Shown: positions 3 to 52,594 of the stretch, piece by piece
Position numbering within the stretch: position 1 is the first letter of the stretch
Layout: the number at the start of each line of letters is the position of its first letter
Assembly: GCA_002691145.1 (NCBI GenBank)
Contig: NZHE01000024.1
Coordinates: 72,094 to 136,093, forward strand
From: Rickettsiales bacterium
Lineage (GTDB): Bacteria > Pseudomonadota > Alphaproteobacteria > Methylaequorales > Methylaequoraceae
Reading direction: 5' to 3'
Length of the DNA stretch: 64,000 nt
Notes under the pieces: model-generated
Database searches by the model: none
Told to the model about the DNA's origin: nothing
What the model saw: only the letters and a program-made list of their open reading frames with translations
Program-made: the position numbers and the translations under genes

Positions 3-856
3 CTAAGCAAGAGAAAGAAGATTATTAAAATAATTCCTGAGGAGTTAGAAAAATTCCTTAAGGAAAATAAAAAGAAGATTACTCTTTTTATCCATCTAGG
101 AGCGAAGAGTTCAACAACAGAGTCAAATGCAAAAATTATATTAGATAACAATATTAATTTATCTTTATTTATTTGGGAATGGTGCTCTCAAAATGGCAAA
201 CGATTAATTTATGCTTCTTCTGCAGCAACATATGGAGATGGAAAAAATGGTTTTAAGGATTCACAAAAAGAAAGCTATTTATCTAATCTAGAACCACTGA
301 ATTTGTACGGATGGTCAAAACATATTATTGATAAGTTATTATTAAATCAAAAAAAAAGAAACCAACTCAATTAGTTGGTTTGAAGTTTTTTAATGTATAC
401 GGACCACACGAATATCACAAAGGACATATGCAAAGTGTAATTTATAAAATATACAATAGAATAATTAATAACAAAGAAGTTGAATTATTTAAATCTCACA
501 AAAAAGAATACGATAATGGTGAACAAGTTAGAGATTTTATCTATATTAAGGACGTTGTAAGCATAATCTTATGGTTTATTAACAATAAAAATATAAATGG
601 TTTATTTAATGTGGGAAGCGGCAAATCTAGAAGTTTTAATTCATTAGCAAGTTCTGTATTTAAATTCTCTAACAAAGAAAAAAAAATTAACTATATTAAT
701 ACTCCTCTTTTAATTAGAAAAAAATACCAATATTTTACTCAAGCTAATATGAAGAAAATATATAATGCAGGGTATACAAAAAAATTTTTTTCTTTAGAAG
801 AAGGCATTGAGGATTATGTTACTAAAACTTTAATGCAGAAGGATTCATATTTATAG
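3..856 (+). CDS. hldD: ADP-glyceromanno-heptose 6-epimerase, 5'-truncated by window edge and frameshifted
   Basis: HldD converts ADP-D-glycero-D-manno-heptose to the L-glycero form used in LPS inner core. The window starts inside the gene, so the N-terminal Rossmann GxxGxxG is absent. Frame 3 (from base 3) reads through GAKSSTTE, YASSAATYG and NLYGWSKH, giving the SDR catalytic Ser and the YxxxK pair, and then stops at 372-374. The continuation VGLKFFNVYGP, FKSHKKEYDNGEQVRDF and FNVGSG lies in frame 2 and ends at 854-856. The switch falls on the A9 run at 349-357, and one extra A would restore a single frame. The usual Cys of GACSSTTE is Lys here. The stop overlaps the lgt GTG start by one base. 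Family assignment is sure; whether the frameshift is real is open. Confidence 0.88.
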
Positions 857-1617
857 TGTATATCCACAACTTAGAACCAGTTGCTTTTAAAATTTTTAAT
901 GTAAATATTTATTGGTATTCCTTATCATACATTTTTGGTTTTTTTTTTAGTATTGTTCTTTCCAAAATTATTATAAAGAAAAAAAAAATAAATCTGAAAA
1001 TAAGTGTTATTGATGACTTTCTCACTTATGCTGTTTTAGGTGTAATATTGGGAGGAAGATTAGGCTATGTTTTATTTTATAATCTTGAATTTTACTATAC
1101 ATATCCAATAGAAATATTAAAAATATGGACTGGCGGAATGTCTTTTCATGGTGGATTGATTGGAGTTATTGTAGCAACTTTTGTTTTTTCTCAAAAAAAA
1201 AAAATCAACTTCTTAGTTCTCTCGAATATTATTGCAATTTGCGCACCTATAGGAATTTTCTTAGGAAGAATAGCTAACTTTATCAATGGTGAACTGTATG
1301 GTAAGAAAACTGACTTACCTTGGGGAGTGATTTTTGATTCCAATGAGATGATTGCGAGGCATCCGAGTCAACTTTATGAGGCTTTTTTTGAGGGAATTAT
1401 ACTTTTTATAATAATGTTAATATCACTGAAAGATAAATTTTTTGATAAATTTAATTCCTGCGCAATATTTTTAATCTTTTATAGTATTTTTCGTTTTATG
1501 ATTGAGTACATTAGGATTCCCGATCAACAAATTGGTTATTTAACATTAAATTTAACAATGGGACAGCTTTTATCAGTTCCGATGTTATTATTAGGCATTT
1601 ACATTTTAAAAAAATGA
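856..1617 (+). CDS. lgt: Prolipoprotein diacylglyceryl transferase
   Basis: This inner-membrane enzyme transfers diacylglycerol from phosphatidylglycerol to the lipobox Cys of prolipoproteins. The 253 residues are of normal family length, with about seven hydrophobic segments. Family landmarks are GGRLGY (66-71), GGMSFHGG (93-100, containing the essential-type His), the signature GRIANFINGELYG (137-149) and HPSQLYEA (169-176). The GTG start overlaps the hldD stop by one base, and the stop overlaps the midA start (ATGA), so translation is probably coupled. The gene contains an in-frame A12 run (1193-1204) that is intact, a useful contrast to the broken runs elsewhere. Confidence 0.96.
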   Translation: MYIHNLEPVAFKIFNVNIYWYSLSYIFGFFFSIVLSKIIIKKKKINLKISVIDDFLTYAVLGVILGGRLGYVLFYNLEFYYTYPIEILKIWTGGMSFHGGLIGVIVATFVFSQKKKINFLVLSNIIAICAPIGIFLGRIANFINGELYGKKTDLPWGVIFDSNEMIARHPSQLYEAFFEGIILFIIMLISLKDKFFDKFNSCAIFLIFYSIFRFMIEYIRIPDQQIGYLTLNLTMGQLLSVPMLLLGIYILKK

Positions 1618-2684
1618 CGAAAATACCATTTGATTTAAAACTTAAATTAAAAAAGAGAGGCTCTCTCTCACTATCTGAATATATCAATTTTTGTCTTTAT
1701 AATCCAAAAAGAGGGTATTATAGAACTCAAAATTCAGTTGGTAAAGATTTCACGACTTCACCGGAAATAAGCCAATTATTTGGTGAATGTATTGGAATTT
1801 TTTTTTTAAATTCAATTAACAATTTTTTTGAAAAAAATGAAATTTCTTTTTTTGAATTAGGACCTGGACAAGGTTCTTTATCTAAAGATATTATTAGAGT
1901 ATTAAACTACAAAAAACATCTTAAAAAAAAATTTCACTTAATTGAAATCAGCGACAAATTAATCTTAAGACAAAAGAAAAAGCTGAAAGATGAAATAGTA
2001 AAAAATAAAATTTTTTGGAGAAAAAATATAAACCTCTCAAAAATAAACACACCAATTTTTTTCTATTGCAACGAGTTCTTTGATGCTTTACCAATTGATC
2101 AATTTAAAAAAATAAACAACAATTGGCATGAAAAACTAATTTTTATGCGTAAAGATGGCAAACTAAGTTCTTATTATAAAAGGACCTCAAAAAAGATACC
2201 TATGTATTATCATTATTTAAAAAATGATTCAGTAATTGAGATCTCAAAGTCATATGAAAAATATCTTAAGAAAATTTTTCAATATCTTGAAAAATTTGGT
2301 GGAGTATTTGTGATTTTTGACTACGGCCCCTATAACAAGTCATTTATAAATACTTTACAAGGTATTTATAATAAAAATAAGTGTAGTATTTTTGAATATC
2401 CATGTGAATCAGATATTACCCATCATTTAGACTTCAATTTTATTATTGAGCTCTCAAAAGAATTCAGAGTAAAACATATAGGCCCCATTTCTCAGAGAGA
2501 ATTTTTGATTAAAAATGGTATACTGGAGAGATTTAAAATACTTGTGAATTCTAATAATCTAAATAAATATGGCAGTCTTAAAAAAGAACTCGATAGATTG
2601 ATAAACCCAAAAGAAATGGGAGAAATATTCAAATGTCTAATATTCTCAAATAAAAACATAAAAAAAATTTTAAATTATGAATGA
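1614..2684 (+). CDS. midA: MidA/NDUFAF7-family SAM-dependent methyltransferase
   Basis: This is a class I methyltransferase of the COG1565 family. The mitochondrial homologue NDUFAF7 dimethylates an arginine of the complex I 49-kDa subunit, and the bacterial role is inferred by homology. The 356 residues show the N-terminal FTTSPEISQLFGE (46-58), the SAM-binding ELGPGQGSLS (81-90) and the family motif NEFFDALP (153-160). It sits between lgt and pgeF, overlapping both by a few bases, an arrangement familiar in alphaproteobacteria. No odd features were seen. Confidence 0.9.
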   Translation: MTKIPFDLKLKLKKRGSLSLSEYINFCLYNPKRGYYRTQNSVGKDFTTSPEISQLFGECIGIFFLNSINNFFEKNEISFFELGPGQGSLSKDIIRVLNYKKHLKKKFHLIEISDKLILRQKKKLKDEIVKNKIFWRKNINLSKINTPIFFYCNEFFDALPIDQFKKINNNWHEKLIFMRKDGKLSSYYKRTSKKIPMYYHYLKNDSVIEISKSYEKYLKKIFQYLEKFGGVFVIFDYGPYNKSFINTLQGIYNKNKCSIFEYPCESDITHHLDFNFIIELSKEFRVKHIGPISQREFLIKNGILERFKILVNSNNLNKYGSLKKELDRLINPKEMGEIFKCLIFSNKNIKKILNYE

Positions 2685-3450
2685 TATGTATTTAAAGTTT
2701 CAGTCTCACAAAAATGACGATTATTATGAAAATAAAGTCTATGGTTTTTTTACTAAAAATGGAGGAGTAAGCAACGGAGATTTAAAATCACTTAATTGTG
2801 CATTCACAAAATTTGAATTAGATGAAAACGTCATAAAGAATAGAGCAATTGCCTGCAAGAGTTTAACGTTAGATCCAAATAAACTAGTATTACTGAACCA
2901 GGTTCACTCCTCAAAAGTTTTACTCATAGATAAAAAAAATTACAGAAATATTCATACAGCTGACGGAATGATCACTAAGGAGAAAGGAATTGTTTTGGGT
3001 ATTTTAACTGCTGACTGCGCTCCAGTTATAATTTTGGGGAAAAAATTTGTAGGAATTATTCATGTCGGTTGGCGAGGACTTTTAAACAATATCTTAAAAA
3101 ATACTTCTATTCTTTTAAAAAAAAAAGGTGAATCTATTGAGAACTCGATATTTATTGTGGGTCCTCACCTAAGATTGAATTCCTTCGAAGTACAAAATGA
3201 TTTTATTAATCATTTAATGAAATTTGGAGTAAATATCAAAGAGTATATAAAAACAACTAAATTAAAAACTTACTTTGATTTTTCGCAACTTATAAAAAAA
3301 AAAATTCAGTTATTAGGCGTTAAAAAAATTTTAATTTCAAAAGTTGATACATTTCGAAGTTCCGATAATTTTTTTAGCTATAGGTATAGTAAAATATTAG
3401 GTAAGAACTATTGTGGAAGGAACATTAGTATTGTAAGTATAAAAAAATAG
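2677..3450 (+). CDS. pgeF: Laccase-domain purine nucleoside phosphorylase / peptidoglycan editing factor
   Basis: Member of the YfiH/PgeF (COG1496, FAMIN-like) family. Some members act as multifunctional purine nucleoside enzymes and others as peptidoglycan editing factors; which applies here cannot be told from sequence. The metal-site residues are present: QVHS with H77, TADCAP with C114 and HVGWRG with H129. Length (257 aa) is standard. The start overlaps the end of midA by 8 bases. A 55-base gap separates it from prs, so it is probably the last gene of the hldD-lgt-midA-pgeF unit. Confidence 0.9.
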   Translation: MNDMYLKFQSHKNDDYYENKVYGFFTKNGGVSNGDLKSLNCAFTKFELDENVIKNRAIACKSLTLDPNKLVLLNQVHSSKVLLIDKKNYRNIHTADGMITKEKGIVLGILTADCAPVIILGKKFVGIIHVGWRGLLNNILKNTSILLKKKGESIENSIFIVGPHLRLNSFEVQNDFINHLMKFGVNIKEYIKTTKLKTYFDFSQLIKKKIQLLGVKKILISKVDTFRSSDNFFSYRYSKILGKNYCGRNISIVSIKK

Positions 3451-3505
3451 TTTTTTTTTAAACTCGTATAAAGTAAATTATAAATATTATATATAATGAT
3501 TAATA
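3451..3505 (+). promoter_or_regulatory. AT-rich gap before prs, likely promoter region
   Basis: This 55-base gap is the only break between pgeF and prs. It contains TATAAT-like strings (around 3489-3498) close to the prs ATG. In this AT-rich background such matches are weak evidence, so the call rests mainly on position at the head of the prs-rplY-pth-ychF run. Confidence 0.3.
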
Positions 3506-4438
3506 ATGAAAATAGTCTCAGGAAATAGTAATATAAGTCTAGCTGAATCTATAGCTCAGTATTTAAAAGTACCACTTGTTAATGCATCTATAAAAAAATT
3601 TCCTGATAAGGAAATATTCGTTGAGATTAAAGAAAATGTAAGAGGAGAGGAAGTTTTTGTGATACAGTCAACTTCTTTTCCTGCCAACGATCATGTAATG
3701 GAACTCCTAGTTACAATTGATGCTCTCAAGAGAGGATCTGCTAAAAATATATCTGCGATAATGCCTTACTATGGGTATGCAAGACAAGATAGAAAATCTG
3801 GTCCAAGAACACCAATATCTGCTAAATTAGTTGCAAATCTTATTAGCACAGCTGGGGCAGATAGAGCATTAATGGTAGATTTGCATGCTGGACAAATTCA
3901 AGGCTTTTTCGATATTCCAACAGATAATCTTTTTGCAGCTCCTGTATTTATAAAAGATATTAAAAAGAGGTTTAATGGTAATAATATAGTTATCGTTTCA
4001 CCAGATGTTGGGGGAGTCGTTAGGGCTAGAGCAATTGCAAAAAAATTAGATTGTGATTTGGCAATTATTGATAAAAGAAGAGAAAAAGCTGGTATTTCAG
4101 AAGTAATGAATATAATTGGAGATGTAGTTAATAAAAAGTGTATTCTTATAGATGATATATGTGATACCGCCGGTACATTGACAAATGCTGCTGTTGCTTT
4201 AAAAAATGAGGGTGCTGATTCAATTTTTTCTTACATAACTCATGGTGTGTTATCAAAACCTGCAGTTGAGAGAATAAATAATTCTCCAATTGATAAAATG
4301 ATATTAACTGATAGTATTCAAGCAACAGAAGATGTAACTAAATCTTTAAAAATTGAGCAAATATCTATCGCTTCCCTTATTGGTGAGGCAATCAATAGGA
4401 TAAGCGATAATCGTTCAGTTTCAAGTTTATTTGCTTAA
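3506..4438 (+). CDS. prs: Ribose-phosphate pyrophosphokinase
   Basis: PRPP synthase makes 5-phosphoribosyl-1-diphosphate from ribose-5-phosphate and ATP for nucleotide, His and Trp synthesis. The 310 aa match the family length. Visible motifs are [12 protein letters not shown] (93-104, ATP binding loop), [18 protein letters not shown] (125-142, PRPP synthetase signature) and DDICDTAGT (216-224, the ribose-phosphate binding loop). It is followed after 13 bases by rplY, and the prs-rplY-pth-ychF order is common in alphaproteobacteria. Confidence 0.97.
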
Positions 4439-4451
4439 AAGGGGATAATGA

Positions 4452-5135: not shown

Positions 5136-5146
5136 TCATCTTAAAT

Positions 5147-5713
5147 ATGAGCTGCTTATTAGTTGGTTTAGGTAATCCTGGAAGCGAGTATAAGTATACT
5201 CGCCATAATATAGGGTTTTTAATAATTGATAAAATCAAGACTACTTATGAATTTCCAGATTACAAAGAAAAATTTGATGGAGTTTTTTCGTGCAATAGTT
5301 TGTTTAATGAAAAATTAATTTTATTTAAACCGATGTTATACATGAACAACTCTGGGATATCTGTTCAAAAAATAAAAAATTATTTTAATATCAACAAAGA
5401 AAATATGTTAATTTTTCATGACGACCTGGATATGGTAACGGGAAAAATTAGGTTGAAATTTAATGGTCGGGATGGAGGACATAATGGAATTAAAGATATA
5501 ATTGAAAAGATTGGATCTAATTTTCGTCGTTTAAAAATGGGAATTGGAAAAAATGAAAAGTTAGAAAATTCTAAAATGTATGTATTAAAAAACTTCAATA
5601 AAAATGAAAAAAATATAATCGATATCAAAATTAATAATGTAGTAGATAATCTAGAACACCTTGTATTTAAAAATTATGATAAATTTAATAACGAAATAAA
5701 AAATGGGATTTAA
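5147..5713 (+). CDS. pth: Peptidyl-tRNA hydrolase
   Basis: Pth releases tRNA from peptidyl-tRNA that drops off ribosomes. The 188 aa carry the full active-site set: GLGNPGSEYKYTRHNIGF with N10 and H20, MNNSG with N68, the HDDLD region with D93, and GGHNGIKDII with N113. It lies 11 bases after rplY and its last 11 bases overlap the start of ychF, a conserved neighbourhood. Confidence 0.97.
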   Translation: MSCLLVGLGNPGSEYKYTRHNIGFLIIDKIKTTYEFPDYKEKFDGVFSCNSLFNEKLILFKPMLYMNNSGISVQKIKNYFNINKENMLIFHDDLDMVTGKIRLKFNGRDGGHNGIKDIIEKIGSNFRRLKMGIGKNEKLENSKMYVLKNFNKNEKNIIDIKINNVVDNLEHLVFKNYDKFNNEIKNGI

Positions 5714-6800
5714 TTGTGGTATCCTTGGTTTGCCAAACGTTGGAAAATCAACATTATTTAATGCTTTAACATCAACTCAGATTGCCGAGTCAAAAAATTA
5801 TCCTTTCTGTACTATAGAGCCTAATATTGGAAAGGTTATGGTTAAAGATAAACGACTAGACAGAATATCTGAAATTTCAAAATCACAAAAAAAAATTTAT
5901 AATCGACTAGAATTTGTCGATATTGCGGGACTAGTCAGGGGTGCCAGTAAAGGTGAAGGTTTAGGTAATAAATTTTTAGGCAATCTTAATAATGTTGATG
6001 CAATTATTCATATTGTTAGATGTTTTGAGGATACAAATATTACTCATGTAAATAGCAGAATCGATCCCATAAACGATATTGAAATAATTGAAACTGAATT
6101 ATTATTGTCGGATTTAAATAAAGTTAATAACGCTTTGGAAAATTTATTAAAGAAAAGTAAAGGCAATTCAGAGGACAAGATAAAGATTGAGATTTTAAAT
6201 GGAGTAAAAGAAAATTTGAGTCAAGGGAAAATACTTCGAGACATAGAGTTTAATGCAGATGAAAAAAAAATAATCAAAGAATTTAGTTTTTTAACACTTA
6301 AACCTTTTATTTACGTATGCAATCTAGATGAAAATTCAATTGAAACAGGGAATAAGTTTTCCAAAACTGTAATTGAATATGCAAAAAACAGAAAAATAGA
6401 TTATCTTAAAGTATCTGCATCAATTGAATCTCAAATTTCTCAGATTGAAAATTATGATGAACGTATAGAATATTTAAACTCCATTAATATAAGAGAAAGC
6501 AGTCTCGATAAACTCATAAAAAAGGGATATAAGCTTCTAGATTTAATAACTTTTTTTACCTCAGGCCCAAAAGAGTCCAGAGCTTGGTCAGTAAAAGAGA
6601 AAAGTAGTGCACCAGAAGCGGCTGCAAAAATTCATACAGATTTTCAAAAGGGATTTATAAGAGCTGAAACAATATCTTATAAAGATTTTATAAAATTCAA
6701 TGGTGAATCAGGAGCAAAAGAAGCAGGAAGAGTTAGGCAAGAAGGAAAAGACTATTTGGTTGAAGATGGCGACATAATTACATTTAGATTTAATGTCTAG
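5703..6800 (+). CDS. ychF: Redox-regulated ATPase YchF (Obg family)
   Basis: YchF/OLA1 is a universally conserved TRAFAC P-loop NTPase that prefers ATP and associates with ribosomes. The 365 aa show G1 GLPNVGKST (9-17), the G3 region DIAGLVRGASKGEGLGNKFL, and a C-terminal TGS-like domain with the conserved ending around AGRVRQEGKDYLVEDGDII. The canonical G4 NKxD is replaced by NLDE, as is typical for YchF. Its 3' end overlaps the convergent aldolase gene by 11 bases. Confidence 0.96.
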   Translation: MGFNCGILGLPNVGKSTLFNALTSTQIAESKNYPFCTIEPNIGKVMVKDKRLDRISEISKSQKKIYNRLEFVDIAGLVRGASKGEGLGNKFLGNLNNVDAIIHIVRCFEDTNITHVNSRIDPINDIEIIETELLLSDLNKVNNALENLLKKSKGNSEDKIKIEILNGVKENLSQGKILRDIEFNADEKKIIKEFSFLTLKPFIYVCNLDENSIETGNKFSKTVIEYAKNRKIDYLKVSASIESQISQIENYDERIEYLNSINIRESSLDKLIKKGYKLLDLITFFTSGPKESRAWSVKEKSSAPEAAAKIHTDFQKGFIRAETISYKDFIKFNGESGAKEAGRVRQEGKDYLVEDGDIITFRFNV

Positions 6801-7428
6801 ATTTATAATCGTCAAACAAATCTATTACTTCGTCCATTTCAGAAGAAGTTAACAATTTATAATTTTTCAAGAGCTTACAAAGATAAAATTGTTTAGATAT
6901 TTTTTCAAGAGATTCCGCTAATTGTATAGCTTCCTCAAAACTTTTTCCTATTGTTATTTGACCATGATTTGATATTAAACAAGCTTTTCTATTTTTTAAA
7001 GCAATTAAAACATTCTTTCCAATTTCATCAGAACCAAATACAGCATACTTTGAACATCTAACATTTTTTCCACCAAATTCTGCAATCATGTAATGAAACG
7101 ACGGAATATTCTCTCTTGAACATGACAATACTGATGCATAGACTGAATGAGTATGAACAATACTATTGACATTATTAAATTTGTTATAAATTTTTAAATG
7201 CATTCCCCACTCGCTTGATGGTTTTACTTTGTTGTTGACATCTCCATTGAGAGAAATATGAGAAACTTGATTAATTTTGATATTTTTTGGGTTTACTCCA
7301 GACGGGGTTATGAGAAATCCATCATTCGTTCTTTGACTTATATTTCCCTCTGAACCAATATTAAGATTCTTATCAATTAAAGTTTGAGTATTCTCAATAA
7401 TTAATTTTTTTAACCTTGTTTTGCTCAT
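6790..7428 (-). CDS. Class II (FucA-like) aldolase, probable 5-methylthioribulose-1-phosphate / 5-deoxyribulose-1-phosphate aldolase
   Basis: A zinc-dependent class II aldolase of 212 aa that aligns nearly co-linearly with E. coli fuculose-phosphate aldolase as I recall it. Metal ligands fall at the FucA positions: E73 (SSEW), H92 and H94 (HTH), H155 (SNHG), plus Y113 in HYMIAEFGG. Because mtnP and mtnA lie immediately upstream in the same operon (4-base overlap with mtnA), the natural substrate is inferred to be the MtnA product, split to DHAP plus methylthioacetaldehyde or acetaldehyde (the DHAP shunt, Ald2 role). The alternative is MtnB dehydratase of the same superfamily; the FucA-type active site makes that less likely. 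Fold assignment is sure, substrate inferred. Confidence 0.82.
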   Translation of the reverse strand: MSKTRLKKLIIENTQTLIDKNLNIGSEGNISQRTNDGFLITPSGVNPKNIKINQVSHISLNGDVNNKVKPSSEWGMHLKIYNKFNNVNSIVHTHSVYASVLSCSRENIPSFHYMIAEFGGKNVRCSKYAVFGSDEIGKNVLIALKNRKACLISNHGQITIGKSFEEAIQLAESLEKISKQFYLCKLLKNYKLLTSSEMDEVIDLFDDYKSRH

Positions 7429-8503
7429 ATTTTTTGCTTCTTCAAAATTTTAACTATTTCTGACCTTTTAGCAATGCATAATCCATGTTCTGTTATCAAA
7501 CTAGTTATCATTTTCGAGGGTGTTACATCAAAAGCGGGATTATAGGTTTTTACTTCTTTTGGAAATATTCTTATATTTTTTACTTCATTATTTTCTAAAG
7601 ATTTTATGTGTGAAATCTCAGTTGAACTTCTTTCTTCAATTTGAATATTGTTTTTATTTGTTTTCATATTTCTATCAATTGTTGAAGATGGTAAAGCTAC
7701 ATAAAAAGGAATTTTGTTGTCAAAAGCTGCAAGAGCTTTTAAGTAAGTACCTATTTTATTACAAACATCGCCATTAATTGTAGTTCTATCACTTCCAACT
7801 ATACAAAGATCTACTAAACCATTTTTCATTAAATGACCCCCGGCATTATCAACAATTACGGTGTTTGGAATTTTTTCATTATATAATTCCCATGATGTTA
7901 ATACTCCTTGATTTCTTGGCCTGGTTTCATCAACCCAAATGTGCATTGGTATTTTTTTTTTTTAGCCATAAAGATTGGAGCTAAAGCAGTTCCCCAGTCG
8001 ATAGCAGCTAACCATCCGGCATTGCAATGCGTTAAAATATTAACTACTTTTTTCTTCTTCTGATAAATTTTTTCTATAATTTTACTACCATGCTTCCCGA
8101 TAGCTTTACATGATGCTAAATCACTTTTCAGAATATTTTTTGCAATTTTTAAAGCCTTTCTTGGTCTCAATTTAAAATCAATTTTAATACATTCATCTTT
8201 TACAATATCAATAGCCCACTTTAAATTAATGGCGGTAGGTCTAGTTGATAAAAGTTCTTTATGTGATCTTTCAATATTAATATCACTCGGATCCTTACTT
8301 AAAGAAATAGCCATTCCAAAAGCTGCTGTAACACCAATTAAAGGAGCGCCTCTAACTCTCATAAAAGAAATTGCTTCACAAAAAGATTTTAATTCTCTTA
8401 ATTCTATAATTTTAAGCTCAAATGGAAGTTTTGTTTGGTCGATAATTTTTACAACATTATTTTCTATCCAAAGTGTCTTATAAGATTTACCATTTACTTT
8501 CAT
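7425..8503 (-). CDS. mtnA: 5-methylthioribose-1-phosphate isomerase, frameshifted
   Basis: MtnA isomerises 5-methylthioribose-1-phosphate to methylthioribulose-1-phosphate. The N-terminal part (8503 to 7898) carries MRVRGAPLIGVTAAFG and THCNAGWLAAIDWGTALAPI, with the catalytic-type Cys. It then loses frame at a coding-strand A12 run (7952-7963). The remainder, HIWVDETRPRNQG, DNAGGHLM and GSDRTTINGDVCNKIGTY with the catalytic-type Asp, continues in the neighbouring frame to 7425. Adding one A joins them as MAKKKKIPMHIWVDETRP and gives a normal full-length enzyme. No other damage is visible, which argues for a sequencing undercall or transcript slippage rather than decay. It lies 3 bases after mtnP and overlaps the aldolase start. 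Confidence 0.9.
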
Positions 8504-8506
8504 TTT

Positions 8507-9358: not shown

Positions 9359-9375
9359 ATAATTACATTAAAGCT

Positions 9376-10137: not shown

Positions 10138-10141
10138 ATAG

Positions 10142-12056: not shown

Positions 12057-12914
12057 ATGAAAAAATTAAATTTTAAAAAAGAAATTTGCACTAAATGGTA
12101 CAAAGAATTAAGAAATGAAATTTGTGCTTACATACAGGGGATAGAAAATCAATATGGTCAAAATTCATTAAAGTTTTTAAGAAAAAAATGGAAAAGAGAA
12201 CCAAAACTTGGAAAAGATCAAGGAGGCGGTGAAATGAGTATCTTAAGAGGTAAAATATTTGAAAAAGCTGGTGTAAATATTTCGACTGTATATGGTAATT
12301 TATCAAAAGAATTTAAAGGAAAAATCCCTGGAACAGAAAAAGATTCTTTTTTTTGGGCCTCTGGTATTTCACTGGTTATTCACCCAAAGTCTCCAAAAAT
12401 CCCAGCTGTACATATGAATACACGTTTTATTAACACCCAGCTTGAGTGGTTCGGAGGCGGAGCAGACATTACACCTGTTAACAAAGAATCAAAAGAATCA
12501 CAAAAACTTGCAAAAATTTTTCATGAAGAATTTAGAATTGTTTGTGAAAATTACAAACTAGGGTGTTACAAAAAATATAAAAAATGGTGTGATGACTACT
12601 TTTATTTACCACACAGAAACGAACATCGGGGTCTTGGAGGAATCTTTTACGACAATTTGTCTAGTAATAATTGGGATTCTGACTTTAACTTTAATAAAAA
12701 TGTTGGTTTGACTTTCTTATCCACTTACAAAAAAGTAGTTCAGATGACAATAAAAAAAAAATGGAATAATTCTGATCTTGAGCTTCAAGCACATAGGAGA
12801 TCGAGATATGCTGAATTTAATCTACTTTATGATAGAGGCACAAAATTTGGGTTAATGACCAACGGAAATCCAGATGCTATTTTTATGTCTCTACCACCCT
12901 CGGCGTCATGGTAG
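12057..12914 (+). CDS. hemF: Oxygen-dependent coproporphyrinogen III oxidase
   Basis: HemF decarboxylates coproporphyrinogen III to protoporphyrinogen IX using oxygen, so it implies an aerobic haem pathway, in keeping with the bc1 and aa3-type oxidase genes here. The 285 aa contain conserved blocks around GGGEMSILRGKIFEKAGVN, HPKSPKIPAVHMNTRF, WFGGGADITP, HRNEHRGLGGIFYDNL, EFNLLYDRGTKFGL and SLPP near the C-terminus. The last 9 bases overlap the convergent cca gene. Confidence 0.96.
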   Translation: MKKLNFKKEICTKWYKELRNEICAYIQGIENQYGQNSLKFLRKKWKREPKLGKDQGGGEMSILRGKIFEKAGVNISTVYGNLSKEFKGKIPGTEKDSFFWASGISLVIHPKSPKIPAVHMNTRFINTQLEWFGGGADITPVNKESKESQKLAKIFHEEFRIVCENYKLGCYKKYKKWCDDYFYLPHRNEHRGLGGIFYDNLSSNNWDSDFNFNKNVGLTFLSTYKKVVQMTIKKKWNNSDLELQAHRRSRYAEFNLLYDRGTKFGLMTNGNPDAIFMSLPPSASW

Positions 12915-14119
12915 AAGACTCTTTGCCTTTTTGATACATCCTTGTTTATTGGGTTTAAGTCCTTTTTTTACCCACCAATTTTCTACTTCTTTTAATAATT
13001 TTCCAATAATTAGTCCATCAGATATTCCCAAAGACTTAATATCATTTCCTGATATTGGAAATCTTGGTTTTTTCCAGTCATGACAGATATCATAGATTTT
13101 TATCACCAGAGACTCATTTATTTTTTTATCAACATAGTCAAATATTATTTGATCTATCAAACTTTCTTTATTATTTCTATATAATAACTCAACATAATCT
13201 AGGGAATAATCAATATCTAATATTTCAGAGATTCTTTTTATTTCGTTTTTTTTGAAAGAACTATTATTTAATATAAATTTTAGATTATCAGAAGAACGTA
13301 AAAAAAATTTTACTCTTCTTAAATAAGAAATATCACCTAACTTTCTCTCAATTTTAAAAAACTTTATTGCCAATTCAGAAATTTCATTTTCAAAACAGTT
13401 TTGTAAAACTCTTGTATTCATTATTTTTTTGAAATCTTTCTCAAAAGTTTTTAAACATATAAACTTTTTTAATTCTGAAAATCTCCTTTCGAAAGAAACC
13501 GTTTTTAATTTATCACTAAAAAAATTGATAGCTTCCAAACCTTTAGAATCAAAATCTTTTGCGTATAAACAACTAAATCGAAGAAATCTAAGTATTCTAA
13601 GGTTATCTTCAATAATTCTATCTTTTGGATTTCCAATAAAGATTACCCTTTTCTTATTCAAATCATTCATACCTTTTAATGGATCAAAAAATCCTTGCTC
13701 CGATAGATATATAGAATTAATTGTGAAGTCTCTTCTTTTAGCGTCTTCTACCCACTCATCTGTGAACGATACAACAGGCCATCTACCGTCAGAACTTATG
13801 TCTTTTCGCAAAGACGTTATTTCAAATTTTATATTATTGATTATTGCAACAATAGTCCCGTATTGCACAGCTGAATCTAAGTAATTTATTTTCTTTTTTT
13901 TCATACAAAAAATAACTTCTTCAGGATTTAAGTTGGTTGCAAGATCAGGATTGGATGAAATTTTTTTTTTTTTAATAAATAATCTCTTACATTTCCACCA
14001 ATAATACGGAGCTTACCTTTTTTTAGTTCAATAGCGTCTTTAATTTGAAGATATTCCTTATATGGGAATCCAATATCTTTTAATTCTTTAAGATCAAAGT
14101 TCTGATTCTTTTTTATCAC
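12906..14119 (-). CDS. cca: CCA-adding tRNA nucleotidyltransferase / poly(A) polymerase family, frameshifted
   Basis: A class II nucleotidyltransferase. The N-terminal segment (14119 onward) has GGNVRDYLLKKK and then runs out of frame at an A13 tract (13961-13973). One extra A joins it to ISSNPDLATNLNPEEVI and the long remainder, with AVQYGTIVAI, FEITSLRKD, DGRWPVVSFTDEWVEDAKRRDFTINSIYL and the NLRILRFLRFS motif. The catalytic DxD that normally precedes the ATN segment reads N-P-D here, and the usual EHGTV is VQYGTI, so a metal ligand appears lost. The family is clear; activity is doubtful. It overlaps hemF (9 bases, convergent) and the DUF6111 gene upstream. Confidence 0.85.
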
Positions 14120-22671: not shown

Positions 22672-23414
22672 ATGCAAGAAAGATATCTTGGAGATATACA
22701 CGATTTTCATAAATTTTTATTTTTAAAATTTATAAAGTATACCTCCTCTTTAAATCTGGGTTTAAATTTTTATAATGTTAACCCAAAAATCCTTGGGAAA
22801 AATGAAGTATCCAAGAATGATGGTGAAAAAAGAAAATACTTGAATAATGATAGATATAGAAAATTAGATCAGTTAATGATTAAAGAATTCACAGAATTAG
22901 TTTCAAAAAAAAATAGAAAATTCAAAAGTTTTATAAAATATTCTCATTTAAAAAAATATATTAATTTTTATCATGATGAAATAAGACTCAATGATAGAAA
23001 GATTTGGTTTAAAAACTCTATCATTAAGTTAAAAAACTGCGATATAATTTTTCTTGACCCAGACAATGGATTGATACCTAAAAGTGTAAAAAAAAATCAA
23101 TGCAATCATTGAAATATGTTTTATTTGATGAATTGTCAGAAATCTTAGCTACAAATAAAGTAGTAATTTTTTCTCAATCACAATCTTATTCAAAGTATCA
23201 TAAAACATTTTTAAAAGAAAAAATTAACGAAATATCCGATAATATTAATATTTCTGTTAATTTTCCTATCATTAGAAACAGAACGTCACCAAATTCTTTT
23301 TTCTTTACAATTTCAAAAGACATATATTTTGATGAAATTAACAGCTTATTAAAAAAATATGCTAATTTTCACGGAAACATAGAATTAATTGATCCTCTTT
23401 TTATTACTGAATAA
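22672..23414 (+). CDS. Uncharacterised conserved protein (DPDNGL / KYVxxDE family), frameshifted
   Basis: Two frames make one protein of about 247 aa: QERYLGDIHDFHKF at the N-terminus, an NDGEKRKYL block and CDIIFLDPDNGLIPKSV in frame 1, then after the A9 run at 23088-23096 the continuation SLKYVLFDELSEIL, VVIFSQSQSYSK and SPNSFFFTIS in frame 3 to 23414. One extra A restores it. I recognise the pattern (RYVGDxxDFxK, NDG, FLDPDNGL, KYVxxDE) from uncharacterised bacterial proteins but know no function. It is a lone (+) gene between amtB and a (-) operon whose end it overlaps by 30 bases, so it has no operon partner. Confidence 0.6.
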
Positions 23415-24361: not shown

Positions 24362-25119
24362 TTAAATTAATTTGTTAAATTTTATTATCTTACCACGGAT
24401 CTCTGAAAAACTAGTTGCATCAACTCTTGGATGCCAGTTAAAAAATGAAAATCTTTTATAAAACATAGTTCCAGAATGAGCTGGCAACAAATAATTATAA
24501 TTACTAATTGGACGAAAACACTCTTTTTCAATCGTCAAGTAAGATAAATTTTTTTGCTCAGAAACATAAATGTTAAGTAGCATTTTTTTTAATTTTTTGT
24601 CTTTCTCACTCAGATTATAAATGATTTCATTACCATTAATTTTAAAAAAAGTATTTGATGAAATTTTCTGATTAAAATAATTATATTCTGAGTACTCAAG
24701 TACTTTTACGTAATTTTTAAATTTTGAAGCTAGAAAATTTGCAAGGTCATGGTCCTGATGTCCTCCTTCGTAAGCAGGCGTAAAAACAATCTTAATTTTA
24801 TATTTTTTGATAATATTTTTTATAGAATTAAACGTTTTAAGCAAGTTATCTTTAACCATCCTAGAATTAATTTGTTGAACTTTGTATTTTTTAACTTTAA
24901 AAAACTTCATTGATTCTTTTAATTCTTTAATTCTCTTATTTAATAAAAACTTGTAATTTTTTTTTCCCAAAACCATCTTGAGTTTTTACTAATTACACCA
25001 TTTGTGAGAAAGAAAATATAAACAAAATTACCTTCTCGAATCAGCTCTCTTATTTTTGTTGATAAACCAACAACTTCATCATCCGGATGGGCGGCTAAAA
25101 TTAGTACATTTTTGGTCAT
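24362..25119 (-). CDS. PIG-L/LmbE family N-acetylsugar deacetylase, frameshifted
   Basis: A zinc-dependent deacetylase of the PIG-L/MshB type. The start at 25119 overlaps the glycosyltransferase stop by one base. The N-terminal frame gives VLILAAHPDDEVVGLS with the HPDD metal motif, then goes out of frame at an A9 run (24957-24965). After one added A it continues as WEKKNYKFLL with the second metal motif EGGHQDHDLAN and SYLTIEKECFRPI. The total would be about 252 aa, normal for the family. Apart from this single lesion the gene is intact. Its position between a GT4 enzyme and a flippase-like protein suggests a glycolipid-linked GlcNAc substrate (inference). Confidence 0.82.
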
Positions 25120-28265: not shown

Positions 28266-28340
28266 TGGCTGGGGTGGCAGGATTCGAACCTGCGAATGCC
28301 GATACCAAAAACCGGTGCCTTACCGCTTGGCCACACCCCA
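28266..28340 (-). tRNA. tRNA-Gln (UUG)
   Basis: A 75-base cloverleaf on the minus strand: acceptor TGGGGTG paired with CACCCCA, discriminator G, and CCA encoded in the genome (28266-28268). The anticodon stem CCGGT/ATCGG holds loop TTTTGGT with anticodon TTG, and the T arm has GGTTCGAATCC. It stands alone between uup and ispE. The encoded CCA matters because the cca gene in this window looks damaged. Confidence 0.97.
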
Positions 28341-43247: not shown

Positions 43248-43261
43248 ATTTAATTTTTAAT

Positions 43262-43268
43262 AGGAGAT
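43262..43268 (+). promoter_or_regulatory. Strong Shine-Dalgarno of atpE
   Basis: AGGAGAT lies 3 bases before the atpE ATG, the best ribosome site seen in the window. This fits the need for about ten c subunits per complex from a shared transcript. Confidence 0.7.
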
Positions 43269-43271
43269 ATT

Positions 43272-43499: not shown

Positions 43500-43502
43500 G
43501 AA

Positions 43503-44066: not shown

Positions 44067-44077
44067 GATAATATATT

Positions 44078-45511: not shown

Positions 45512-45512
45512 T

Positions 45513-46421: not shown

Positions 46422-46425
46422 AATT

Positions 46426-48381: not shown

Positions 48382-48428
48382 AATATCTTCTAATTGAAAT
48401 TAAAAAAAAATACTGTCATAATTTATAT

Positions 48429-48992
48429 ATGAAAAATAAAAATTATTTAACAGGTAATATAATTTGTGCAATTCCACAATTAAAGGATATTTTTTTCTCG
48501 AAAAGTATTATTTATATAACTCATCACAACAAAAATGGTGCAGTTGGTATCGTCCTAAACTATAAACTTATGAAGATTAAAAGCTCAGATATTATTAAAA
48601 AGTTAAATTTAGATATAAAAAATACCAGCAACAACTTTTCAATCCATATTGGAGGGCCAATGAATCAGGAAAATGGGTTTATACTTCATTCTCAGGAATA
48701 TTTTGAACCCAATACCATTAAAATTACTAAAGATATAAACCTAACTTGCACAAGAAAAATTTTTGAAGATATTGCCATGAACAAAGGACCTAAAAAGTAT
48801 TTTATTTCACTTGGATATGCAGGATGGGGGCCAGGTCAATTAGAGGACGAGCTTATCAAAAATAGTTGGATACACATTACAGAAAAGTTAGATTTAATTT
48901 TCGATATTGATGCTAGAGATAAATGGGATAAGGCCATTAAATTATCAGGAATTGACTTTTCAAAGTTTATACCAAACTCAGGAACTGCATAA
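48429..48992 (+). CDS. algH: YqgE/AlgH family protein
   Basis: A conserved protein of unknown biochemical function, 187 aa from this start. I prefer 48429 over the upstream in-frame ATG (48372) because the family begins with YLTGNIICAIPQL and because the longer version would overlap the divergent dsbD-like start. Landmarks are SIIYITHHNKNGAVGIVLN, HIGGPMNQENGFILHS and FISLGYAGWGPGQLEDEL. The stop is adjacent to the thrC stop. Confidence 0.9.
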   Translation: MKNKNYLTGNIICAIPQLKDIFFSKSIIYITHHNKNGAVGIVLNYKLMKIKSSDIIKKLNLDIKNTSNNFSIHIGGPMNQENGFILHSQEYFEPNTIKITKDINLTCTRKIFEDIAMNKGPKKYFISLGYAGWGPGQLEDELIKNSWIHITEKLDLIFDIDARDKWDKAIKLSGIDFSKFIPNSGTA

Positions 48993-50375
48993 CTAGTTAT
49001 TACTCTGAATATAATTTTTAAGCTTTTCAACATCATTATCTAAAATGTCAAATTTCTCTTCATAGCTTTTCAAGTTATTTAATTTATCAGGTAACTTCAT
49101 TTTTTTTTCTAAAGATTTATTAATTGTATTTAAGAATTTTCCATAATGAGCTGTAGCAAGATATACATTTTTTATATTCTCTTTATTCAAAAAACGTTTT
49201 CCTATCGAAATACCGACTGCTGTATGAGGGTCAACTACTATTTTATATTTTAAAAACATTTTTTTTATGCAATCTGTTGTTTTGTTGTCATCTAACCTAC
49301 CTACCTGGAATCTTTTTTTCATTTTGCTAATGATAGATTTGCTTAATTGAAAATCTCCTTTTGACTTTAATCTCAAAAAAAGTTGGTTGACTTCAACTTT
49401 ATCAATGTAATGATATAATAATCTTTCAAAGTTACTTGAAACTTGTATATCCATACTTGGGCTTAGTGTCTCAAAGGTTTTTAACTTCTTCATTTGACCA
49501 GTCTCAAAAAATCTAGTGAGAACATCGTTTTTATTTGAGGCAATAATAATCTTATTTATTGGAAGTCCCATTTTCATGGCTATAAATGCAGCATACGCAT
49601 TACCAAAATTACCAGTTGGAACTGAAAAGTTAATCATTTCATTATCATCGCAACAATTAAAATATGCCCAAAAATAGTAAACAATCTGACCCATTATCCT
49701 TACCCAATTAATTGAATTAACAGCAGCAAGATTAAATTTCTTTTCTTTTTCATTAATTTCAAACAAACTTTTAACGAGATTTTGACAATCATCGAAGTCA
49801 CCTTTAATTGCAAGATTGAACACGTTACTTTTGTTAAAAGTAGTCATCTGCATTCTTTGAATGGGACTAACTTTATTATATGGAAAGAGGATAAACATCT
49901 TTATTAAATTAGATTTAGAACAACCATGAATTGCTGCTGAACCAGTATCTCCAGATGTTGCTCCGACAATTGTAAGCTTTATCTTTTTCTTTTTAAGAAT
50001 AAAGTTGTATATATTTCCTAATAATTGAAGTGCATAGTCTTTAAAAGCAAGAGTTGGACCATGAAAAAGGTTTAGAATATATTCTTTATTATTTAACTTT
50101 TTGATCGAAATAATCTCATTATCTGAAAATTCATTGTATGTTATCTCACATATTTTGGTATAATCCTCCTTTGATATATTAGACTTCACAAAAATCCATG
50201 TAATTTGATGCACAAGCTCTGAGTAGGATAAACCTCTCATATTATTAAGTTTTGATTTTGAGATTTGAGAAATTTCATCCGGGACAAACAAACCCCCGTC
50301 AGAAGCTAAACCACTTAAAACAACTTTTTCAAATTCTACAGAATTTTCACTACCTCTTGTTGAAGAATATAACAT
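48993..50375 (-). CDS. thrC: Threonine synthase
   Basis: A PLP enzyme forming threonine from phosphohomoserine. The 460 aa have TRGSENSVEFEKVVLSGLASDGGLFVP at the N-terminus, the PLP Lys K112 in HGPTLAFKDYALQLLG, the phosphate loop GATSGDTGSAAIHG and PTGNFGNAYAA. It is the long, fungal-like form. It closes the cox-surf1 operon, 17 bases after surf1, the usual alphaproteobacterial order. Confidence 0.97.
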   Translation of the reverse strand: MLYSSTRGSENSVEFEKVVLSGLASDGGLFVPDEISQISKSKLNNMRGLSYSELVHQITWIFVKSNISKEDYTKICEITYNEFSDNEIISIKKLNNKEYILNLFHGPTLAFKDYALQLLGNIYNFILKKKKIKLTIVGATSGDTGSAAIHGCSKSNLIKMFILFPYNKVSPIQRMQMTTFNKSNVFNLAIKGDFDDCQNLVKSLFEINEKEKKFNLAAVNSINWVRIMGQIVYYFWAYFNCCDDNEMINFSVPTGNFGNAYAAFIAMKMGLPINKIIIASNKNDVLTRFFETGQMKKLKTFETLSPSMDIQVSSNFERLLYHYIDKVEVNQLFLRLKSKGDFQLSKSIISKMKKRFQVGRLDDNKTTDCIKKMFLKYKIVVDPHTAVGISIGKRFLNKENIKNVYLATAHYGKFLNTINKSLEKKMKLPDKLNNLKSYEEKFDILDNDVEKLKNYIQSNN

Positions 50376-50392
50376 TTAATACTTTTAAATTT

Positions 50393-51109
50393 CTATTTTA
50401 TTTTTTTTAAAGAAGCAGCCATGAAAACACCGATAAGACCTAAAGCAATCAAGAACCAGGTTATAGCATATTGCAAATGGTTATTTCTTATGTAAATTCT
50501 TGTTTGTCCTCCTAGAGGAGATCCTCCTGGACCATTATTTACTGCTTCTAAATAAAAAGATTTTTCTAAATTTAAGCCAGTAAATTCTGACATTTGGACT
50601 GGGTCAATAAAAAACCAAAAATTATTTTCTAATTCATTATCCGGCTGATACTTACCTTTCCTACCTGGAGTTCTAATTACTGCCTCTATATCATGAAAAC
50701 CCTCAACTAAATTCTCTAATCTTTTTTCTTTCAATTTTTTTCTTAACGGGATCCAACCACGATCAAATACTACGTAGGAATTTTCTGATAATTCTAAAGG
50801 AACAATGATATGATAACCATTATTTCCATTTTTGCTAAGAGCCGCCATATACATTTCTAATTCATTGAAAAAAGAACCATTTAAACTTACTTTCGTAAAT
50901 TCCTGTTGTTCAGGGTGTTCTATTGAATCCAAAGATACAATTTTTTTTTCAAATCTTTCTATTCTTATTTTGATTAATTCTTCTTTCCAAGCTAATCTTT
51001 TAATTTGCCACACGCACAAGCTTAAAAGTATTGATAAAGCTACTAGAAAGGAAAATAAAGGAATTATTTTAGTTTCAAAAACATAGTTTTTATTTAATCT
51101 GATTTTCAT
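50393..51109 (-). CDS. SURF1 family cytochrome oxidase assembly protein
   Basis: Surf1 helps haem a insertion into CoxA. The 238 aa have two helices (about 15-33 and 212-232), the N-terminal CVWQIKRLAWKEELI, VFDRGWIP and the C-terminal HLQYAITWFLIAL. It sits 16 bases after coxC. No anomalies were seen. Confidence 0.93.
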   Translation of the reverse strand: MKIRLNKNYVFETKIIPLFSFLVALSILLSLCVWQIKRLAWKEELIKIRIERFEKKIVSLDSIEHPEQQEFTKVSLNGSFFNELEMYMAALSKNGNNGYHIIVPLELSENSYVVFDRGWIPLRKKLKEKRLENLVEGFHDIEAVIRTPGRKGKYQPDNELENNFWFFIDPVQMSEFTGLNLEKSFYLEAVNNGPGGSPLGGQTRIYIRNNHLQYAITWFLIALGLIGVFMAASLKKIK

Positions 51110-51125
51110 TTCTTAAATTTAGGAG

Positions 51126-51947
51126 CTAAATCGAGGCCCACCAGTAAACAAATGCAAATAGAAAAAGCCAGACTACATCTACAAAATGCCAATACCAGGC
51201 GGCAAATTCAAAACCCAAATGTTTTTCTGGTTTAAAATGGCCTTTTAAACCCCTAAAAAAGCAAACTAGTAAAAAAATTGAACCTATGAGGACATGCGCA
51301 CCGTGAAAACCAGTAGCCATATAAAATGTTGATGGATAGATTCCTTCGTCAATTGAGAATTCAGCAACCATGTATTCATAAGCTTGAAAACCTGTAAAAA
51401 TTATTCCTAGTAATATTGTCAAAAATAGAAATATCAAAAATTTTTTTCTATCATTGTCTTTTAACGCATGATGAGCAACAGTAACAGTCGCTCCCGAAGC
51501 AAGGAGAATTAATGTATTAAGAAGAGGAACTCCAAAAGGATTAATCAAATTAATATCTTCCGGAGGAAACACTCCTCCAATTGAATCTATTCTTCCGATT
51601 AACTCAGGGCTGTCAGAACCTGGATAGAAAGCCACATCAAAGAAAGCCCAAAACCATGCAGCGAAGAACATAATTTCTGAAGCTATGAAGAGCAACATTC
51701 CATATCTCAAACCAATCTGAACAATTTTATTATGAAAAACACCTTTTTGAGACTCGTTTACAACATCTTTCCACCACAATAAACTAGATATAACAACAGC
51801 TAAGGATCCTACATAAAAGAGGGTTTGCTTTTCATAATGCATAAACAATATTGCGCCAACGGCCATTAATAATGTTGCCATAGAGACAACTAGTGGCCAC
51901 GGGCTTGGGTCTACAAGATGATAGGGATGTTTTTGATTTTCACTCAT
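51126..51947 (-). CDS. coxC: Cytochrome c oxidase subunit III
   Basis: The third core subunit, 273 aa with seven helices. Landmarks are HPYHLVDPSPWPLVVS, SEIMFFAAWFWAFFDVAFYPG, GATVTVAHHALK, TGFHGAHVLIG and the C-terminal WHFVDVVWLFLFAFVYWW. The start overlaps the ctaG stop by one base. Confidence 0.97.
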   Translation of the reverse strand: MSENQKHPYHLVDPSPWPLVVSMATLLMAVGAILFMHYEKQTLFYVGSLAVVISSLLWWKDVVNESQKGVFHNKIVQIGLRYGMLLFIASEIMFFAAWFWAFFDVAFYPGSDSPELIGRIDSIGGVFPPEDINLINPFGVPLLNTLILLASGATVTVAHHALKDNDRKKFLIFLFLTILLGIIFTGFQAYEYMVAEFSIDEGIYPSTFYMATGFHGAHVLIGSIFLLVCFFRGLKGHFKPEKHLGFEFAAWYWHFVDVVWLFLFAFVYWWASI

Positions 51948-52498
51948 TATTTCCTCGCAATAGAACTGTTCTTTTCAAACATTGTATAAGATAACGTTAA
52001 TTGTTGAACATTTTTTACAAAATTATCATTTAATATATCAGGATTTATAAAAAAAGAAACAGGCATTTCAACTTCTTGACCTGGTTCAAAAACTTGTTCT
52101 TCAAAACAAAAACATTCTACCTTATTAAAATATTGAGCGGCGCCTAAAGGTGTTACATTGAAAGATGCCATCCCGGTTATAGATTCTTTGGAACTGTTCC
52201 TTGCTTTGTAAAATATTAATTTACTTTCACCAGGATTAACTTTTACTTTTTTTAAAACAGGTTCGAAAATTAATGGTGAATTTTTTTCCACAGATGAATC
52301 AAATCTGACTTCATAAGTGCTCGAATTGATTTCATGTGTATTTTTTTCTACAATCTTAGGTGTTCCACCATACCCAGTAACTGCGCAAAAGATCTTGTAC
52401 AAAGGAACCGAAGCGTAGCTTACAGCAATCATAAAAAAAACAAAAGTTGTCAGATAAACTGCATACCTTTTTAAGTTTTTATTTGTATCAATTTTCAT
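51947..52498 (-). CDS. ctaG: Cytochrome c oxidase assembly protein CtaG/Cox11
   Basis: Cox11 delivers copper to CuB of subunit I. The 183 aa have one N-terminal helix (about 13-33) and a periplasmic beta domain with the copper motif CFCF in KVECFCFEEQVFEPGQEVEMPV. YASVPLYKIFCAVTGYGGTP is the family signature. It lies 4 bases after the small cox-operon gene and overlaps coxC. Confidence 0.95.
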   Translation of the reverse strand: MKIDTNKNLKRYAVYLTTFVFFMIAVSYASVPLYKIFCAVTGYGGTPKIVEKNTHEINSSTYEVRFDSSVEKNSPLIFEPVLKKVKVNPGESKLIFYKARNSSKESITGMASFNVTPLGAAQYFNKVECFCFEEQVFEPGQEVEMPVSFFINPDILNDNFVKNVQQLTLSYTMFEKNSSIARK

Positions 52499-52502
52499 AG
52501 TC

Positions 52503-52594
52503 TCATATTTTAATTATAGTAACAACATAAAATATTGTAGCCAAACTAAATAATAAAAGAGCTATGGCTATGTTTTTTTTTTTTTATTATCCAT
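52503..52594 (-). CDS. 30-residue single-helix protein of the cox operon, frameshifted
   Basis: Between ctaB and ctaG lies an ATG (52594) reading MDNKKKK and then, after one added A in the A13 run (52573-52585), NIAIALLLFSLATIFYVVTIIKI to a TGA at 52503-52505. As written the frame ends at TAG just past the run. The core ALLLFSLATIFYVVTIIK matches the small single-span protein that alphaproteobacteria carry at exactly this place between ctaB and ctaG. Length, position and the clean stop after repair support a real gene. A role in oxidase assembly or stability is inferred from context only. Confidence 0.68.

Follow-up and report, generated by a model that had tools for sequence, protein, structure and literature searches.

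Frame breaks at long coding A runs occur in this genome more often than expected by chance. In the window, the whole 64-kb stretch of DNA that was analyzed, six genes are each broken at a run of 9 to 13 A on the coding strand. We consider it fairly probable (roughly 0.6) that these six broken frames represent run-length errors of the assembly, or run-length variation collapsed by it, and that the living cells, likely those of a marine bacterium, would carry working genes. The comparison covered assembled sequences, in which an erroneous consensus would look the same as a minority allele that truly exists.

Broken genes in the window

The initial annotation had described six A/T runs as the sites of frame breaks in otherwise intact genes. 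The lengths and places of these runs were confirmed, all six frame breaks are present, and each gene carries one lesion, with its pieces otherwise open. Genes hldD, mtnA, cca, and PIG-L match known protein families, with each piece of hldD and mtnA searched separately. The 22672 gene gave no match in Pfam and NCBIfam. A homology scan covering 62.2–62.5 kb of the 64 kb identified exactly five frameshifts, located in hldD, mtnA, cca, the 22672 gene, and the PIG-L gene, each at its named run. All five belong to one class, in which the downstream frame is one base short or two bases long. Each is backed by five to seven reference genomes, except that of cca, which is backed by one or two only. The small cox gene was missed by the scan because it is too short. 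The interval between ctaB and cox11 contains a small frame of 29–40 codons in all 10 loci inspected. A comparison of CtaD with viral contigs returned two relatives at 61%, which was uninformative, and high-GC contigs showed short tRNA-gene matches or none to a phage collection.

Table 1. Broken genes and the A runs at their frame breaks (positions in the window).
Feature	Position	Strand	Details
hldD (ADP-glyceromanno-heptose 6-epimerase), two frames	3..856	+	Pieces 3–374 and 380–856; TIGR02197 positions 48–155 and 164–313
A9, hldD frame break	349..357	+	Homology scan, 5 reference genomes concordant
mtnA, two frames	7425..8503	-	N-terminal piece 7898–8503, C-terminal piece 7425–7946; NF004326 positions 5–191 and 192–354; full frame in relatives
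Coding-strand A12, mtnA frame break	7952..7963	-	Relatives fit one base more
cca (tRNA nucleotidyltransferase), two frames	12906..14119	-	Pieces ~13961–14119 and 12906–13973; longer piece matches NF009814; P0001 near-identical, full-length
Coding-strand A13, cca frame break	13961..13973	-	Implied +2 bases relative to near-identical intact protein
22672 gene, function unknown, two frames	22672..23414	+	Pieces 22672–23112 and 23100–23414; intact near-identical protein P0168, 247 aa
A9, 22672-gene frame break	23088..23096	+	Homology scan
PIG-L family deacetylase gene, two frames	24362..25119	-	Pieces 24957–25119 and 24362–24976; PF02585; full frames in relatives
Coding-strand A9, PIG-L frame break	24957..24965	-	Homology scan
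Small cox gene, ~30 codons, ctaB/cox11 interval, broken near start	52503..52594	-	Similar small frame in 10/10 loci inspected
Coding-strand A13, small cox gene frame break	52573..52585	-	14 A in relatives G008 and G022

The initial annotation held that exactly one extra A was needed at all six runs and proposed a comparison with sister genomes. Relatives fit one base more than the window has at four of the six runs, those of the 22672 gene, mtnA, PIG-L, and the small cox gene. At cca, a near-identical full-length protein implies two bases fewer than the window has, and hldD fits either −1 or +2. For cca, the intact protein P0001 (403 aa) agrees with the window at 51/52 residues upstream and 353/359 residues downstream of the break, and four of the six downstream differences sit at the junction. 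Because P0001 has three lysines where the window run covers four codons, the cca run appears to be two bases too long rather than one too short. The hldD run lies in a loop of 27–31 residues across relatives (21/24 loci anchored), and because loop length varies among relatives the two changes are not distinguishable there. Anchors matched at 9/27 loci for mtnA, all nine with identical spacing, at 3/27 for PIG-L, and at 1/27 for both cca and the 22672 gene. Relatives do not conserve the run at the sites checked, which were nine mtnA loci and the 22672 gene.

Orthologues of the broken window genes are intact in nearly all of the 23–26 relatives available per gene, and hldD is a single open frame in 23 orthologous loci. 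Beyond the window, 39 further stretches of the same genome (702 kb) were scanned. The statement that no +1 lesion exists is correct within the window but fails genome-wide, as 8/10 frameshifts in these stretches are of the +1/−2 class. Nine of the ten have just one reference protein behind them, and one, in YidD (L316), lies at the edge of the conserved domain. With the small cox gene included, the two classes stand at 8 vs 8 in the whole sample. The broken genes also include pheT, which is the only copy in the genome and is broken at an A13 run.

Run length, relatives, and ambiguous bases

All counts are confined to runs in homology-covered sequence. Of the coding A/T runs of at least 9 in this genome, 15/264 (~6%) are out of frame, compared with 0/950 runs of 7–8. 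The rate climbs with length, from 7/215 at 9–10 to 8/49 at 11 or more. Long coding A runs (≥9) are common throughout this alphaproteobacterial family and, in the stretches examined, nearly always in frame, and runs as long as the broken ones stand in frame in relatives. Among seven relatives with comparable runs, only 2/678 runs of at least 9 are out of frame (p = 3e-7 against this genome). At length 9 alone the contrast is 5/150 here vs 0/403 in the seven relatives.

The seven-relative scan recorded five frameshift events, of which the two at runs of at least 9 were counted. The event L337 in G014 was dropped because it is not at a run, despite the support of six genomes, and L285 and L288 were dropped as they lie at a gene edge adjoining a tRNA and share one query. 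An earlier, looser scan had given 11 clusters in relatives, including matches to one window antisense ORF and an N-rich stretch of G022; a stricter scan with non-overlapping ORFs and tighter scores cut these clusters. In a 22-genome scan, runs of identical context within a genome were removed to avoid double counting, and the count omits two G002 events, found at runs of 7 and 8 and each resting on a single window query.

Breaks in relatives were further compared with the presence of ambiguous (N) bases, which we infer to be a mark of assembly type. Apart from this genome, five relatives had N bases in the sequence examined, and 3/147 of their runs are out of frame, vs 1/902 in the 24 N-free relatives (p = 0.01). 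This contrast points the way expected if the rate depends on the assembly; lineage and assembly are inseparable for this genome in that comparison, and N status in the 22-genome scan was judged from just 7–23 kb per genome. Three of the four breaks in relatives are in assemblies with N bases, like the present assembly, and in each of the six N-bearing genomes most N bases stand alone. No association between breaks and local N bases was found within this genome: the window is N-free, and 11/15 scanned events lie in N-free stretches. The break in G004 likewise has no N within 1 kb. The break in G022 affects the orthologue of window positions 5703–6800, where the window copy is intact. The N-free relative G005 has a frame break of the other class at an A15 run; it falls in the variable loop of the 22672 gene that also contains the window break.

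The initial annotation had also offered two readings, undercalling of some runs by the consensus or restoration of frames by RNA polymerase slippage on poly-A. Of these, misstated run lengths are the better supported, and slippage gained no positive evidence. One-sided shortening was rejected, as both frame classes are present, the cca run appears two bases longer than expected, and host-like stretches have a spectrum of run lengths like that of N-free relatives, with no global shortening against the five compared.

Explanations for the frame breaks

Consensus error is supported by the confinement of lesions in this genome to long homopolymers and by the rise of their rate with run length. It is further favored by the contrast with relatives, the higher rate in N-bearing assemblies, the presence of both frame classes, the breaks in single-copy pheT and in cca, the near-identical intact copies, the intact mutS and mutL, and the poor conservation of the runs at the sites checked. 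Against it stand the truncated PIG-L protein described below, the missing local link to N bases, the breaks in G005 and G004, and the single reference protein behind most events outside the window. At long A/T runs, the consensus step would settle on an incorrect or minority length, and lengths would be misstated in both directions rather than shortened only.

The main rival, to which we give a clearly smaller though appreciable chance, is that the lesions are real. Replication slippage at long A runs would produce short-lived out-of-frame alleles, with the load carried by cells or the population. Slippage predicts both the run-length dependence and the occurrence of both classes, and a few such breaks are found in relatives, one of them without N in the loci examined. 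Intact and truncated forms of PIG-L are also both present among public proteins (P0121 and P0167 intact, P0122 truncated). The truncated 182-aa protein is identical to the downstream piece in the window and occurs on five contigs, each of at most 2,103 bases; it could reflect an allele that truly exists, or other assemblies could suffer from the same noise. Real lesions of this kind are harder to reconcile with the breaks in single-copy pheT and cca. Moreover, the N-free relatives, five of which were compared and have a similar run spectrum, show only their single break, so normal mutation-selection balance in the family would yield far fewer breaks. The mutS and mutL genes are full-length open frames (897 and 587 aa), which also counts against real lesions, and a mutator lineage or loss of mismatch repair as the cause was ruled out on this ground.

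It is improbable that RNA polymerase slippage on A runs mends the frames in some transcripts, so that broken genes are tolerated, as has been proposed for Buchnera and Blochmannia. Such rescue would suit runs of at least 9 A in genes that are otherwise open, essential ones among them, and the proportion of 15/264 resembles that in Blochmannia vafer, for which the available part of the report gives eight frameshifted genes vs 153 coding poly-A tracts (PMC3017870). Every one of the 16 broken runs reads A on its coding strand, but so do most in-frame coding runs of at least 9 (221 A and 28 T, 221/249), and the chance of 15/15 A is ~0.17. The bias was therefore rejected as a transcriptional signal and is uninformative. 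The breaks are not common to relatives, with the truncated PIG-L on five contigs as one contrary hint. Relatives keep equally long runs in frame, the checked runs lack conservation, and intact copies 96–99% identical to the window genes were found for 3/3 genes tested (cca, PIG-L, and the 22672 gene). The broader proposition that a free-living marine alphaproteobacterium tolerates about 1/20 of its long coding runs out of frame, pheT and cca included, through RNA polymerase slippage would be, if anything, slightly more doubtful.

Pseudogenes are a very improbable explanation of the frames broken in the assembled sequence, given single lesions in otherwise open window genes, intact orthologues in nearly all relatives, and the presence of pheT and cca among the broken genes. 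Least probable of all is production of full proteins by −1 ribosomal frameshifting on A runs, which could correct all six window lesions but not the 8/10 lesions of opposite class elsewhere in the genome, and for which the sites checked lack a conserved run.

Consequences and comparison with known systems

If the breaks are read at face value, LPS heptose synthesis, methionine salvage, tRNA end repair, and phenylalanine charging would falsely seem lost, while the genome very likely has them. Scattered single ambiguous bases may serve as a warning sign to distrust an assembly at A/T runs of at least 9. If the run lengths are real, the genome would offer a rare case for slippage rescue outside endosymbionts.

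Tamas et al. reportedly described, in 2008, frameshifts in poly(A) tracts of insect endosymbionts that are rescued by transcriptional slippage. As far as the available part of the Blochmannia vafer report goes, that system and the present genome share AT-richness, A runs of at least 9, about 1/20 of coding tracts out of frame, and essential genes among those affected (PMC3017870). Unlike the endosymbiont slippage described there, the breaks here are unshared with relatives, and intact near-identical copies exist (PMC3017870). In the available part of the GeneTack survey, isolated singleton frameshifts validated by BLASTp were expected by the authors to be sequencing errors (PMC3711429). The frame breaks described here are similarly isolated and unshared, but they are many in one genome and lie at long A runs only, unlike those singletons as presented there (PMC3711429). 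Gene-fragmenting homopolymer indels in draft assemblies, arising from long-read errors, are the subject of Kastor (PMC12007338) and Homopolish (PMC8011154), in the parts of these papers available. The present assembly differs from the cases covered there in having no global run shortening and in showing both frame classes. It resembles them in that otherwise intact, conserved genes appear broken at long homopolymers and are revealed by relatives.

Broken frames in the window

The initial annotation had named six coding poly-A runs, and their positions and lengths were confirmed in the sequence (see table). A homology scan of the window with proteins of seven relatives from the same family, covering 62.2–62.5 kb, identified exactly five frameshifts, all at named runs; that in cca was supported by two references in the first scan and by one in the second. 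Searched separately, the two pieces of hldD align to successive parts of a single family model, and so do the two pieces of mtnA to theirs; for cca and PIG-L, the longer piece matches the corresponding model. Pieces of the 22672 gene have no match in Pfam or NCBIfam. This gene, to which family models assign no function, has many relatives among public proteins. Comparison with sister genomes, one of the checks proposed initially, showed most orthologues of the scanned window genes in frame, with a break at the 22672 gene in the relative G005.

Coordinates of the runs and other located features (window positions unless a contig, C, or stretch, L, is given; other G-numbers are relatives)
Feature	Location	Run	Frame in relatives	Run length or state
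Window in this genome (G000)	C18:72094-136093
hldD	349-357	A9	full-length, 23/23 orthologous loci; one locus cut by contig end	loop length at run varies among relatives
mtnA	7952-7963	A12	full-length, 26/26 matches, except one near contig end (G012)	one base short by spacing at 9/9 loci matching both anchors
cca	13961-13973	A13	full-length, 26/26 matches	two bases too long
22672 gene (22672-23414)	23088-23096	A9	full-length, 24/26 matches; G005 broken, G012 partial match in longer frame	fits one base short
PIG-L	24957-24965	A9	full-length, 26/26 matches	fits one base short
cox small gene	52573-52585	A13	29-40-codon frame between ctaB and cox11, 10/10 loci inspected (by eye only)	fits one base short; 14 A in G008 and G022 vs 13 A here
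tRNA-Gln	28266-28340
pheT	C8:109857-112266			single occurrence in G000, two pieces in different frames
Frameshift in G014	L337:5141-5176			not at a long run

A frame break fixes run length only modulo three. The proposal that every run is one base too short holds for mtnA and agrees with the relatives for the cox small gene, PIG-L and the 22672 gene. In cca, the near-identical public protein P0001 and the 69% identical relative P0002 both have three lysines ahead of isoleucine; the cca run is therefore two bases too long, and the proposal fails for at least one of the six.

The window belongs to a 2.03-Mb genome of 29 contigs (96.9% complete, 3.6% contaminated). Where family members have a matching CtaD, its identity to that of the window is 92–94%; for the single cell AG-908-F15 (record title: uncultured Alphaproteobacteria bacterium) it is 93%. 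Names of the nearest named records and Tara-sourced proteins suggest that the family is marine. The label 'Rickettsiales bacterium' comes from NCBI, and none of the results points to the genus Rickettsia or to a pathogen. The tRNA-Gln is the sole tRNA found in the window, and the DNA directly after it reads as its own CCA end.

Frame breaks across the genome

The scan was repeated on 39 further stretches of G000 (702 kb, 291 kb homology-covered) and on stretches of the seven relatives (865 kb covered). The window and the 39 stretches together contain 15 frameshifts, every one at an A/T run of at least 9. Out-of-frame coding runs number 15/264 at this length versus 0/950 at lengths 7–8 (p = 8e-11), and the rate climbs from 7/215 at 9–10 to 8/49 at 11 or longer. 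The seven relatives have 2/678 coding runs of at least 9 out of frame (p = 3e-7 against G000) and three further frameshifts that are not at long runs. The frame breaks are present in the assembled sequence, at a rate that greatly exceeds chance. The G014 frameshift, supported by six genomes, is perhaps a true pseudogene or gene fission. Across the eight family genomes, in-frame coding runs of at least 12 are A rather than T in 53 versus 2 cases in relatives and 25 versus 0 in G000, with an A:T ratio below 3 to 1 at length 7; lysine repeats may be better tolerated than phenylalanine repeats.

The ten events outside the window were detected with glucose-6-phosphate isomerase, PheT, acetolactate synthase, GlnD, ABC transporter ATPase, Maf, FabG-like, enoyl-CoA-hydratase-like domain, Xaa-Pro-peptidase-like and extended YidD proteins as references. 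The gene broken under the acetolactate synthase reference is a distant relative (27–32% identity). Cells are not expected to survive the loss of pheT, which makes a genuine null that goes uncorrected very unlikely for this gene.

In the window, 5/5 breaks (6/6 with the cox gene) leave the downstream frame one base short or two long, while 8/10 outside it are of the opposite (+1/−2) class, 8 versus 8 in total. The initial statement that no +1 lesion occurs thus holds in the window but fails genome-wide. Chance is the sole explanation offered for the skew between the window and the rest (p = 0.007, tested post hoc).

Eighteen contigs (C1, C2, C3, C5, C6, C10-C14, C16, C19, C21-C24, C28 and C29; e.g. 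stretches L119, L120, L123, L124, L128 and L320) resemble phage contigs, about half a megabase in all, that were placed in the same bin as the host. Their sampled parts have a GC content of 0.315–0.437, almost no A/T runs of at least 9 and 0–21% coverage by family proteins. Among nine large ORFs from such contigs (one from C26, 49% family-covered), five clearly match phage families (helicase, ribonucleotide reductase, radical SAM, ATP-dependent protease and one without known function), one matches weakly and three have no match. Three stretches of phage-like contigs carry tRNA clusters. Phage-like contigs also form near-identical pairs, L119/L319, L123/L321, L124/L327, L129/L326 and L131/L320 (98.4–99.9%, differing by substitutions with few gaps), as though a single bin combined two strains or two assemblies.

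Probable assembly cause and alternative explanations

We consider the breaks to be a property of the assembly rather than of the organism, with a probability of roughly 0.6, because similar runs in relatives are in frame, the breaks are commoner in the sampled assemblies bearing N bases, and near-identical full-length proteins exist. The seven relatives have a spectrum of long coding A runs similar to that of G000, yet keep them in frame. Ambiguous N bases, mostly single and taken as a mark of assembly type, occur in the examined stretches of G000, G022 and G004 and in none of those of G014, G008, G006, G009 and G003. All 17 breaks fall in the N-bearing three, versus 0/586 runs in the N-free five. 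Among 22 further relatives, 1/55 runs are broken in three N-bearing genomes and 1/316 in 19 N-free ones; excluding G000, N-bearing relatives total 3/147 versus 1/902 in N-free ones (p = 0.01). Of the three breaks in N-bearing relatives, two have an N no more than 100 bases away, and the one in G004 is over 1 kb from any N.

Full-length proteins 96–99% identical to the window were found for all three genes tested. P0001 (cca) lies on a 24,596-base contig and P0168 (22672 gene; 140/141 and 107/108 residues) on a 6,297-base contig, neither length occurring among the 29 contigs of G000; these two and P0122, a truncated PIG-L product, have a blank source field, as do the proteins the window encodes, and may not be independent of G000's own reads. 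The intact PIG-L counterparts are P0121 (96%) and P0167. The 1,367-base contig of P0167 joins a topoisomerase-like gene to PIG-L at a short shared motif and looks like an assembly chimera. After the join, P0167 is identical to the window before and after the run, differing only at the junction of the run itself and close to its end; at the run it is in frame.

Against an assembly cause, P0122 occurs on five short contigs, and breaks within G000 show no clustering near N bases (4/15 in stretches with N). In G005 (L253), N-free in the loci examined, the 22672-gene orthologue is broken at an A15 run in the variable loop that is also hit in the window; breaks of this sort may therefore be genuine in a few cases. 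G000 is also the sole genome of its genus in the sample, and for it assembly and lineage effects are inseparable. These points leave slippage alleles or polymorphism in the cells as a possibility, albeit an unlikely one.

Rescue of the RNA by transcriptional slippage, raised initially beside consensus undercalling, is still more doubtful. Such rescue was suggested earlier for Blochmannia and Buchnera. Blochmannia vafer has frameshifts of this kind in eight genes, and its coding regions contain 153 long poly-A tracts (PMC3017870). In G000, the sites checked yielded no conserved run, relatives lack shared breaks, and the coding-strand A bias equals background. In a later study of E. coli and Buchnera transcriptomes, insertions at A/T runs rose with length, and no frame-restoring case was detected (PMC5574713). 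Ribosomal −1 frameshifting fits the window, where all breaks are of the matching class, but not the genome, given the opposite class of most outside breaks. Judged by mutS and mutL, loss of mismatch repair is excluded as a cause.

Similarly, in a GeneTack survey, frame breaks that are isolated and validated by BLASTp are expected to be sequencing errors (PMC3711429).
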